Shown here piece after piece: positions 48,076 to 53,575 of a stretch of 57,673 nucleotides of DNA. Position numbers and translations under genes: made by a program. This DNA comes from Opitutales bacterium (GTDB lineage: Bacteria; Verrucomicrobiota; Verrucomicrobiia; Opitutales; Oceanipulchritudinaceae). Each line of letters begins with the position of its first letter. The first letter of the stretch is position 1. Where the stretch lies: assembly GCA_020831485.1 (NCBI GenBank), contig JAFIGG010000015.1, positions 1-57,673 on the forward strand, written 5' to 3'. The notes under the pieces were generated by a model, which saw only the letters and a list, made by a program, of their open reading frames with translations, searched no databases and was not told where the DNA came from.

Positions 48076-49065
48076 CTATTCCAGGTTGCCGCTGCCGATA
48101 GATACTTCACCCGCATTGAGCGCGTGAATTTTGCCAGAGGCTTCGCGGATGAGCAGGCAGCCTTGGGTGTCGATGCCTTCGCCGACTCCGGTGATGGTTT
48201 TCTGATTACGCTCAAAATTGAGGGTGCGGCCGTGAAGGCAGTCGTAATCCGGCCATTCTTTGAGCAGCTGGCGTGTATCGCTGCGCAGAAAGTGTTGATA
48301 GCTTTCTTCAATTAAACCCGTCAGCTCCGCTGTAAGGCGGTGGAAGGGGAGGCGTTCGCCCCGAACGCTGCGCAGGCTGGTTGCCATCCGCCGCACCTCT
48401 TCCGGCCATTGGCTGGTTTCGCAGTTGATGTTCAGCCCCATGCCAAAGATCAGATCGCGGATAGCGTCGGCATCGACGCGGGCCTCGGTAAGCATGCCGC
48501 AGACCTTTTTGCCGTTCAGGAGCAAGTCGTTCGGCCATTTGATCTGAACCGGCAGGCCGTAGCGTTGATTCATGAAGATGCACAGGCGCAGACCAAAAAA
48601 CAGCGTGATCGTCTGCATACGCTTTGGCGGCAAGGACGGCTGGAAGGCGAAGCTAATGTATAGGTTGCCATCCGAGGGGCTGTGCCAGCGCCGTCCCATG
48701 CGGCCGCGCCCTTGGGTTTGCTCCGCACTGGCGACTGCAAACGGCGTTTCGCTGCCTTCGGCCAGAAGGCGCTGAGCTTCGGTGTTGGTGCTGCCAATGG
48801 AAGCGTGCCAATGGACCGGCATGCTTACGTTCTCACGGTAGAGCCATGCGTTCATGAGCGATTGCAGAGGCTGTTCAGGCTCTCGCGTGATGCGGTAGCC
48901 GCGGTTGCGGACCGCCGTTAGCTGTAGTCCAGATTCACTCAGCTTTTGTAGCCGTTTCCAGATGCCCACGCGACTCATGCCCAGTTGCTCGGCCAGATCC
49001 TGGCCATTGACATAGCCCTCGGGTTGCGCTATCAGGGCGTGCAGGATACGGGTGTCTGAGTCCAT
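48076..49065 (-). CDS. birA: Bifunctional biotin ligase/repressor BirA
   Basis: 329 residues. Residues 1-60 form an HTH_11 DNA-binding domain (RILHALIAQPEGYVNGQDLA, then MSRVGIWKRLQKL), followed by the catalytic domain with GRGRMGRRW at 119-127, KWPNDLLLNGKKVCGML at 176-192 with K187, and a small C-terminal SH3-like part. This is the group II type, which both biotinylates carboxylases and can repress biotin genes. ATG 49065 is one base after the nadC stop; the frame extends upstream without similarity. It is last in the ilvB-proA-nadC-birA string. Confidence 0.93.
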   Translation of the reverse strand: MDSDTRILHALIAQPEGYVNGQDLAEQLGMSRVGIWKRLQKLSESGLQLTAVRNRGYRITREPEQPLQSLMNAWLYRENVSMPVHWHASIGSTNTEAQRLLAEGSETPFAVASAEQTQGRGRMGRRWHSPSDGNLYISFAFQPSLPPKRMQTITLFFGLRLCIFMNQRYGLPVQIKWPNDLLLNGKKVCGMLTEARVDADAIRDLIFGMGLNINCETSQWPEEVRRMATSLRSVRGERLPFHRLTAELTGLIEESYQHFLRSDTRQLLKEWPDYDCLHGRTLNFERNQKTITGVGEGIDTQGCLLIREASGKIHALNAGEVSIGSGNLE

Positions 49066-49066
49066 A

Positions 49067-49990
49067 TCAATCCCAGTCAAGACCGATGTCTTGCCAGCGG
49101 CTTTGGTGAACCGTAGCGCCTGTGGAAATATAGTCGAGGCCGAGCGCAGCCATCGAAGGCAGGCGCTCAATAGTGATGCCGCCGCTGGCTTCGGTGCGGG
49201 CGCGGCCATTGATGAGTGTGACTGCTTCGCTCAGCGCCGCATTGTCAAAATTGTCGAGCATGATGATGTGGGCACCGGCCTCGACGACCGGTTCGATTTG
49301 CTCAATATGGTCGACTTCGACCTCGACCAGCAACTTCGGTTGCGCTTCACGAGCGCGCAGGACTGCTTCGCGGAGTCGATCGCCGCCTGCGGATCCAGTT
49401 GCGGCGAGGTGATTGTCCTTCAGCATAACCCGGTCGAATAGGCCAAGCCGGTGATTCCATCCACCTCCGCAAGCCACTGCGTATTTTTGCAGCATGCGGT
49501 AGCCCGGCAGCGTTTTGCGGGTGTCGAGCAGTCGGGTCGGGCTGTCTCCCAGCGCGTCGACGTAGCGACGGGTTTCCGTGGCGACACCGGAAAGCATTTG
49601 CGCGAAATTGAGGGCAACCCGCTCCATCTGCAGGATCTGCTGGGCTGGACCGTGTAGCCGACCGAGGATGTCGCCTTTTGCGGCGGTCTGGCCGTCGGAC
49701 TTGCGACTGTTGTATTCCACCCCGAAGCGGTAGACTTCCGCGATCAGGGGCAGCAACTGAAGGCCGCAGACGACCATATCACTGCGTGCAACCAAGCTGG
49801 CCGATCCCGGATGGGCGGCAGGCAGGAGTGCGGCGCTGACATCGGTTGCTTTGTCCGGAGGGCGACTCAAGCCCCAGCCGGCGAGGTCTTCGTCGCGGGC
49901 CAAGGCTATCAATTGTTTCAACGCAGCCAAATCCAGTTCCTGCCAGGTAAGGCGTCGGCAACAGGGATCAACTGTGGCAGGATTGGACAT
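49067..49990 (-). CDS. nadC: Nicotinate-nucleotide pyrophosphorylase (carboxylating)
   Basis: 307 residues, slightly longer than average. NadC makes nicotinate mononucleotide from quinolinate and PRPP in NAD synthesis. RVALNFAQMLSGVATETRRYV and RLLDTRKTLPGYRMLQKYAV bear the substrate arginines; VMLKDNHLAATG, LLVEVEVDHIEQI and IIMLDNFDNAAL form the barrel active site, and ASGGITIERLPSMAALGLDYIS ends it. The start ATG 49990 is four bases after the proA stop. It is embedded in an operon headed by ilvB. Confidence 0.95.
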   Translation of the reverse strand: MSNPATVDPCCRRLTWQELDLAALKQLIALARDEDLAGWGLSRPPDKATDVSAALLPAAHPGSASLVARSDMVVCGLQLLPLIAEVYRFGVEYNSRKSDGQTAAKGDILGRLHGPAQQILQMERVALNFAQMLSGVATETRRYVDALGDSPTRLLDTRKTLPGYRMLQKYAVACGGGWNHRLGLFDRVMLKDNHLAATGSAGGDRLREAVLRAREAQPKLLVEVEVDHIEQIEPVVEAGAHIIMLDNFDNAALSEAVTLINGRARTEASGGITIERLPSMAALGLDYISTGATVHQSRWQDIGLDWD

Positions 49991-49994
49991 GTCT

Positions 49995-51281
49995 TCAGCT
50001 GCGGGTTTCCCCGTGTCCGTCGATCAGAAATTTATAGCTTGTTAGCTCCGTAAGTCCCATGGGCCCGCGGGCGTGCAGTTTGTCGGTGGAAATGCCGATT
50101 TCAGCGCCCAGGCCAAATTCGAATCCATCGGTGAAGCGCGTGGAAGCATTCCAGTAGACTGAGGACGCATCCACACCCTGCTGAAAAGCCGCTGCCGCCT
50201 GGGGATCGGCTGTGACGATTGCATCGCTGTGGCCGGAACCGTAGGCGTTGATGAAATCGATTGCTGCCTGAAGGGAATCGACTGTGCGTACTGCTATGAC
50301 CTTATCGAGGTATTCTTCGTGGTAGTCTTCCTCGCTGGCCGTTTTGAACGGAATTCCTCCGACCTGATGCAGGCAGTCAGCCGCCAGGCGGTCGACTCGC
50401 AGCTCAACGCCTTCGGCGTGCAAAGCTTTGGCTATCGGGATGAAGTGGGAGGCCAATACATCCTGGTGAACCACCAGGTTTTCCGCTGCGTTGCAGACGC
50501 TTGGACGCTGACACTTGGCGTTGACGCTGATGGAAACCGCCATGTCGATATCGGCCGCCGGATCAATATAGACATTGCAGACACCTTTGTAGTGCTTGAT
50601 CACCGGCATGCGCGCATTTTCTGCGACAAAACGGATCAGGCCTTCGCCTCCACGGGGGATGAGGCAATGCACATAGGCGTCCAGCTTCATCAGGACAGAC
50701 AGCGCGTAGCGGTCGGTTGTGGGAATCAATTGTACCGCGTCCGGATTGATACCTTCGGCGATTAGAACGCGGGTGATGATTGCAGCCAGCGCCTGATTGC
50801 TGTGGAAAGCCTCGCGGCCCCCGCGCAGAATCGTCGCGTTGCCGCTCTTGAGACAGAGCACCGCGCAGTCAATGGTCACATTGGGACGGGATTCGTAGAC
50901 AATCCCGATCACGCCAATCGGAACCCGTACCTTGCGCAGGGTGAATCCGGTTGCATGTTGACGGCGCTCCAGTTCCTGGCCCACCGGGTCCGGCAGGGCA
51001 GCCACTTGGCGAATTCCCTCGACCATGCTGTCCATGCGGGCAGGAGTCAGTTTCAGCCGGTCCAGCAGGGCTGCGGACAGACCGGCGGTTTCGCCAGCGG
51101 TCAAGTCGCGTTCGTTTTCGACCCTGAGCTGCTCGCGAATTTTCGGATCCTCCAGTTCAGCTGCCAAACGCTCGAGGACCGCGTTCTTTTTTGCAGTCGA
51201 CAAGGTCGCCAGACTGTAGGAGGCGTTCAGCGCGCGCTGGGCGATCTCCTCAACCAGTTTTTCCAGTTTCGACTCAACCAT
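49995..51281 (-). CDS. proA: Gamma-glutamyl phosphate reductase
   Basis: 428 residues. NADPH-dependent reduction of gamma-glutamyl phosphate in proline synthesis. The cofactor region [18 protein letters not shown], the loop [16 protein letters not shown], and the catalytic cysteine segment [16 protein letters not shown] are intact, and [14 protein letters not shown] and [15 protein letters not shown] are the C-terminal family motifs. proB is not present here. It lies 11 bases after ilvB and 4 bases before nadC, consistent with a single transcript. Confidence 0.96.
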
Positions 51282-51292
51282 GAGGCTAGCCC

Positions 51293-53104
<1,812 letters not shown>

Positions 53105-53170
53105 CTGACGTTTAGTTAATTGAAATCAATATTTGAAAAGGGATAAGCATACGGTGCGCATCTGCAAGAC

Positions 53171-53220
53171 CGGGCATAAGGGGATTTCCAATTGGTGGAA
53201 CAACAAAAATCCATCGCCCG
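53171..53220 (-). promoter_or_regulatory. Leader stem-loop between valine leader and ilvB
   Basis: On the minus strand CGGGC (53220-53216) pairs with GCCCG (53175-53171); inside, GGAT (53212-53209) pairs with ATCC (53185-53182) and TTCCA (53200-53196) with TGGAA (53190-53186). Its first two bases (53220-53219) are shared with the hairpin in the leader ORF, so both cannot form fully together. This is the arrangement expected of an antiterminator or 2:3 stem. A downstream stem ending in a T run is not obvious; CCCTTTT occurs near 53139-53145. Confidence 0.55.
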
Positions 53221-53242
53221 TCAGCAGGATACTACGCTGACG
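53219..53242 (-). promoter_or_regulatory. Leader hairpin overlapping valine codons and stop codon
   Basis: CGTCAGC (53242-53236) pairs perfectly with GCTGACG (53225-53219) around a 10-base loop. The left arm is made of valine/serine codons and the right arm covers the leader stop codon TGA. A ribosome stalled at the valine run would prevent it forming and free the GACGGGC segment for the downstream stem. This matches the 1:2 pause hairpin of classical attenuators. Confidence 0.65.
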
Positions 53243-53292
53243 ACGACTACCGGTACTACTACGACCGTTGCGATGGAATGCACCAAGTTCAT
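53221..53292 (-). CDS. Valine-rich leader peptide of ilvB (attenuator ORF)
   Basis: A 23-codon ORF, too short for usual gene calling, on the same strand as ilvB and ending 117 bases upstream of it. It encodes MNLVHSIATVVVV then PVVVVSVVSC: 11 valines in 23 residues, read by GTA, GTC and GTG, in runs of four, four and two. The pattern is close to the E. coli ilvB leader (VVVVRVVVVV). Translation would stall when Val-tRNA is short and switch the hairpins downstream. ATG 53292 is preceded by an AT-rich stretch (TAATATAGC) without a clear ribosome site. It is not a known database entry to me; the identification rests on codon content, position and hairpins. Confidence 0.85.
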   Translation of the reverse strand: MNLVHSIATVVVVPVVVVSVVSC

Positions 53293-53575
53293 TAAGCTAT
53301 ATTAGAGTGGCTTCGTTTGAAATCCATCGTCGAGCAAAGATAACCCTTGCTGGAAGGCAAGCTGAAAATCGTCTGAGAATCCGAGTTCCTGTTTTGGGGT
53401 CTTGGTGAACCTGATAGAATCGAAGCTGGATGATCGATTTGGAAGCGTTTGAAGCGGTTGAAGTTGGTGGATTGGGCCAAAAATACTGGGAAATCGGGCT
53501 TTTGATATCATTTAATCCGGATATATTGATATTTAACTTGAAGAAGCTCTGGCGGCAGGCAATCTTTCAGTGCTT
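53293..53575 (+). other. metK leader region, no gene seen
   Basis: 283 bases between the start of the ilvB leader and metK. It is AT-richer near metK (ATATCATTTAATCC, ATATATTGATATTTAA), where a promoter is likely. I looked for SAM-I, SAM-II, SAM/SAH and SAH aptamer cores and recognise none. Short frames on either strand here lack any family or codon signature. Confidence 0.4.

Follow-up and report, generated by a model that had tools for sequence, protein, structure and literature searches.

The valine-rich leader ORF upstream of ilvB in the genome of the uncultured Opitutales bacterium examined here very likely senses valine, and the leader as a whole is probably a valine-responsive, ribosome-mediated attenuator of ilvB. 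The window, by which we mean the whole stretch of DNA analyzed, is 57,673 nucleotides long; all positions refer to it, and the leader, its RNA segments, and ilvB lie on the minus strand. In the proposed mechanism, the leader ORF would be translated during transcription of the leader. When Val-tRNA is short, the ribosome would stall in the Val clusters and cover segment 1, whereupon segment 2 would pair with segment 3 and ilvB would be read. When Val-tRNA is plentiful, a ribosome at the stop codon would cover both segment 1 and segment 2; segment 3 could then form the weak 3:4 hairpin, and ilvB expression would be cut. We infer translation of the ORF, valine as the in vivo signal, and premature termination as the output, either intrinsic-like at 3:4 or Rho-assisted. 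The leader seems to be a known kind of attenuator that is apparently undescribed in Verrucomicrobiota. An earlier reading made from the sequence alone (the sequence-only reading) had considered this phylum as a possible host, in agreement with the nearest named IlvB relatives, which are Opitutae MAGs.

The leader ORF, MNLVHSIATVVVVPVVVVSVVSC, runs from an ATG to a TGA (53292–53221) and specifies 23 amino acids, with Val at 11 of the 23 codons, as the sequence-only reading had described. Between the ORF and the ilvB ATG (53104) lie 116 bases. The valines are concentrated in a first cluster at codons 10 to 13 (GTC GTA GTA GTA; 53254–53265) and a second at codons 15 to 18 and 20 to 21 (GTA GTC GTC GTC AGC GTA GTA; 53230–53250). 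Val density in the ORF reaches 10 per 12 residues. The next-best real short ORF of the window reaches 6, and 6 was also the maximum among approximately 44,000 short ORFs from 50 dinucleotide shuffles of the window, which never attained the density of the leader. The VVVVxVVV pattern (GTN x4-NNN-GTN x3) matches once in the 3.86-Mb genome, and the match is the leader itself, in frame and before ilvB; the same pattern read backwards as a control gives three matches in this genome, so that the pattern is not rare by composition alone. No Shine–Dalgarno-like stretch precedes the leader ATG, and no consensus sigma-70 promoter was found. A possible −10 element recognized by sequence only, TAATAT (53299–53304), ends 6 nt 5′ of the ATG, and its position would make the ORF leaderless or nearly so.

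Folding of the leader RNA yielded a chain of mutually exclusive pairings, 1:2, 2:3, and 3:4, whose segments overlap as an attenuator requires. Segment 1 (53235–53247), the 5′ arm of the 1:2 hairpin, lies within the second Val cluster and contains control codons, and segment 2 (53213–53226), the 3′ arm, contains the stop codon of the leader together with the CGGGCGAT that follows it. The 1:2 hairpin is a 13-bp stem with one bulge (53247–53235 with 53226–53213; −16.7 kcal/mol, z = −3.3), the stability of which is equaled by 0.6% of shuffles. A perfect 7-bp hairpin reported earlier at 53219–53242 (CGTCAGC/GCTGACG) is real but is only the core of this longer stem; for this reason, the overlap with the downstream stem, correctly noticed at the time, amounts to at least 8 bases and not 2. 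The downstream composite stem, previously drawn at 53171–53220, was recovered as the 2:3 antiterminator-like stem-loop (53168–53222), in which 53222–53215 pair with 53176–53168 and enclose the inner hairpin GGATTTT..GGAAATCC (53212–53182). The composite stem has a z of −1.8, with 4% of shuffles as stable, and GC-rich hairpins at or just after the leader stop are found in most other leader loci. The 3:4 hairpin (53147–53175), a candidate terminator or pause hairpin, is weak (−7.2 kcal/mol, z = −0.5, i.e., no more stable than shuffles), and is followed by an imperfect U-rich tail, TTATCCCTTTTC (53135–53146).

Ribosome position was modeled by masking the RNA as far as 14 nt beyond the first A-site base and then computing pair probabilities, which amounts to equilibrium folding of one sequence. 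Without a ribosome, 1:2 dominated and P(2:3) was 0. With the A-site at codons 10 to 11, the outcome was mixed and 2:3 was not clearly favored. P(2:3) was 0.99 to 1.0 with the A-site at codons 12 to 20, which include seven Val codons (12, 13, 15–18, and 20), and 2:3 was largely lost at codon 21. Placing the ribosome at the leader stop codon gave a P(2:3) of 0 and a P(3:4) of 0.86. In this folding model, the window leader follows ordinary ribosome-mediated attenuation logic, and the attenuation layout proposed in the sequence-only reading, a Val-rich leader with alternative hairpins and ribosome-dependent pairing, is supported.

We gathered ilvB upstream regions from the family, order, and phylum (first set, n = 129). 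Of these 129 ilvB genes, 9 are preceded by an ORF with at least 6 Val per 12 residues; the reverse complements contain none, and shuffles predict 0.0. No other single residue tested gives such a coding-strand excess upstream of ilvB. In genus g7, a sister genus in the window's family, all four genomes carry homologous leaders (VKYRTPIAQLLVVVELVVPVVA, VKTRIPYALNLVLVELVVLVVA, VKTWTPYALPQLVVELVVLVVVA, and VNGPTHNALLSLVVEHVVVVLVVVS), each starting with GTG and followed by the same two hairpins. Another genus of the family, g8, has a leader with AAVLLGVLVVVSVVRH. Two genomes of genus g9 have tandem ilvB genes with a leader ahead of the first copy, the leader of one genome being weaker. At the g9 loci L015, L025, L197, and L198, ilvB is present in two tandem copies, with a Val-containing leader before the first copy only. 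Elsewhere in the order, leaders occur in families f3 (two genera) and f5 (two genera, three genomes), and beyond it in a subdivision-3 MAG, L040, and scattered families of the phylum (L219, L261, L222, and L235). The leaders of relatives differ in sequence and use mixed GTC, GTG, GTT, and GTA codons together with mixed Leu and Ile; across genera, the common elements are Val codons and a hairpin after the stop rather than a core of conserved sequence. Val/Leu/Ile-rich leaders before ilvB were also observed in L222, L235, and L258, from other families of the phylum, with clear intrinsic terminators in L222 and L235.

Orthologues had been named in advance as the place where the leader and its covariation could fail. 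The outcome there was mixed: the leader recurs far beyond chance, but no such leader was found in sister genera g3, g4, and g6 or in most sampled ilvB genes of the order; the distribution among relatives, as judged from these upstream regions, is patchy. Within g7, the two hairpins are kept in four of four genomes, with 98% of cells paired and one compensatory pair, but this covariation is weak, as 249 of 500 shuffles equal it in these four genomes of one genus.

The output step is where the loci diverge. In the window, no proper U run follows 3:4, and a terminator scan found no terminator there, in line with the earlier remark that a canonical stem with a T run was not obvious. U runs are likewise lacking in the g7, f3, and f5 loci, and L014, L016, L018, L024, and L123 have no U-run terminator. 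U-run terminators lie 3′ of the leader in the relatives L012, L038, L040, L222, L235, and L261. Because these six leader-bearing relatives have terminators and the window does not, our claim for the window is that its leader works like an attenuator. In the same folding model, the L040 terminator is off (P ≤0.04) with the ribosome on V16 to L23 and on (0.99) at the stop, the equilibrium switch is absent in L012, L038, L222, and L261, and it is only partial in L235. L040 is a MAG labelled Gemmatimonadota whose ilvB is 54% identical to that of the window, and the locus is a textbook attenuator with a Val-rich leader, a post-stop antiterminator, and a terminator with nine T. Counted at −12 kcal/mol, U-run terminators are present at 6 of 18 leader loci versus 22 of 175 controls (p = 0.03), a marginal difference to which we gave no weight as support; it loses significance when the cut-off is relaxed, probably as a result of the many terminators in the control set that belong to upstream genes.

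We regard premature transcription termination at 3:4 as an evenly balanced proposition for the output of the window leader. A distinctly possible, if not the favored, reading keeps the translated, valine-sensing leader and lets Rho-dependent termination or coupling to ilvB translation take the place of the intrinsic 3:4 terminator. Once a ribosome has completed the leader, Rho would have approximately 116 nt of untranslated RNA to act on, or access to the ilvB start would change. The absence of U-run terminators from the window, g7, and the five loci L014 to L123 listed above argues for it, as does the window genome, which has rho and in which canonical terminators are present at other sites, such as behind ilvC; Rho has been put forward as the means by which leader peptides lacking a terminator act (PMC1262725). 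Against it, a 3:4 hairpin is present in the window, followed by a U-rich, if imperfect, tail, and g7 leaves an untranslated stretch of no more than about 60 to 80 nt, which is short for Rho. In addition, the window hairpins end about 40 to 65 nt before the ilvB ATG and therefore do not cover the ribosome-binding site. More broadly, ilvB leader peptides in part of Verrucomicrobiota might act without an intrinsic terminator, a ribosome-gated post-stop hairpin working via Rho or coupling to ilvB translation, with other members keeping the U-run terminator; this we hold to be rather doubtful. The window genome contains two Rho-like genes, G000:C24:10901-12313 and G000:C60:134360-135463 (L266 and L267), one of which has a 777-aa open frame.

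Two further readings deny the ORF a role altogether. It could be a Val-rich frame that arose by chance, or a GTA/GTC trinucleotide repeat, in either case without regulatory function, as the short triplet runs GTAGTAGTA and GTCGTCGTC and the many relatives without the ORF would allow; the shuffle tests, the location of the only genome-wide match in front of ilvB, and recurrence among relatives whose leaders mix different Val codons with Leu and Ile make this highly improbable. Alternatively, the leader RNA might bind a ligand, as a riboswitch or T-box, with the ORF incidental to it. T-boxes control ilv genes in other bacteria, which lends this idea some plausibility. So do ppGpp riboswitches (PMC10272879). 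We nevertheless consider a ligand-binding RNA very unlikely: none of 4227 Rfam families reached its gathering score, the window and 13 related loci gave no leader or riboswitch match, a permissive Rfam scan of the leader region gave nothing better than chance matches (E-values of 6 or more), and the genera share no conserved sequence core.

The likely target of the attenuator is ilvB itself (51293–53104), which encodes the 603-aa acetohydroxyacid synthase (AHAS) large subunit. Close behind it on the same strand (48076–51281) are proA (49995–51281), nadC (49067–49990), and birA (48076 to about 49059). The sequence-only reading had supposed that this operon links branched-chain amino acid supply to proline, NAD, and biotin genes. 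This did not hold up: the order ilvB-proA-nadC-birA occurs in none of the 38 relatives checked, where proA, nadC, and metK are never beside ilvB, so the link is not conserved. In the window genome, ilvN-ilvC is on another contig and no leader of this type was seen before it, before two LeuA-like genes, or before trpE. Since the gene order is unshared and these other genes have no such leader, the leader goes with ilvB, and an influence on the proline, NAD, or biotin genes would seem to be a by-product of how genes happen to be arranged at this one locus. Plasmids yielded no DNA-level homologues. In the window, metK (SAM synthetase) is divergent from ilvB, the two sharing a 465-base intergenic region (53105–53569). 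Just before the ilvB ATG, CGTCAG (53105–53110) complements CTGACG at the leader stop (53219–53224) over 6 nt, which could be chance; translational control through this pairing was considered, but visual inspection of the g7 loci revealed no counterpart.

Val codon choice in the leaders is unusual. GTA is the rarest Val codon in 32 long ORFs of the window, at 7.5% (73 of 968). In the window leader, 6 of the 11 Val codons are GTA (binomial p = 6e-5). When 16 leaders are pooled, its share is 27 of 114 Val codons versus 40 of 442 in ilvB genes (Fisher p = 7e-5), and the pooled enrichment persists without the window leader (Fisher p = 0.003). This enrichment fits a starvation sensor, and RNA structural constraints could contribute to it.

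The E. coli ivbL (ilvB) and ilvL (ilvG) attenuators consist of a Val-rich leader with Val runs, with the stop codon near the antiterminator arm, located directly upstream of an AHAS gene. The window leader resembles them in each of these features, but is without a canonical U-run terminator, and Val predominates in it, accompanied by one Ile and one Leu. For the Mycobacterium tuberculosis ilvB1 attenuator, end mapping, ribosome footprints, and reporters support the same logic (PMC13236596). As proposed for the window, it has a uORF rich in branched-chain amino acid (BCAA) codons, a ribosome that has reached the stop codon hides the antiterminator, and stalling at regulatory codons, including GUA, exposes it; unlike the window, it belongs to a different phylum and has a Rho-independent terminator with a U tract (PMC13236596). 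ilvB uORF motifs are known from Corynebacterium (ilvB-II), Leptospira, and further phyla, among them ilvB-OMG, with 41 representatives from "various bacterial phyla" (PMC10272879). These are likewise ilvB leader RNAs with BCAA-rich uORFs and proposed attenuators, but no Rfam model matches the window or the 13 related loci, and ilvB-II is described as having a strong terminator stem (PMC10272879), in which the window differs. Actinobacterial cys leader peptides (PMC1262725) share with the window an amino-acid-rich leader without an obvious terminator, for which Rho was suggested; they differ in having Cys codons and preceding cys operons, and the window has an explicit 1:2/2:3/3:4 chain.

Our literature search found no paper joining ilvB leader-peptide attenuation with Verrucomicrobiota, consistent with the earlier impression that such leaders are little described there, although coverage was incomplete. 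With the window leader, control of branched-chain amino acid synthesis by a leader peptide would reach a phylum for which the literature searched gives no example. The approximately 15 loci, with and without classic terminators, allow loss or replacement of the output step to be compared; the adjacent proA, nadC, and birA should not be taken for a conserved component of what the leader regulates. As a check on the method, the scan also picked up BCAA-rich ORFs upstream at actinobacterial loci, in agreement with the prediction published for that phylum (PMC1262725).
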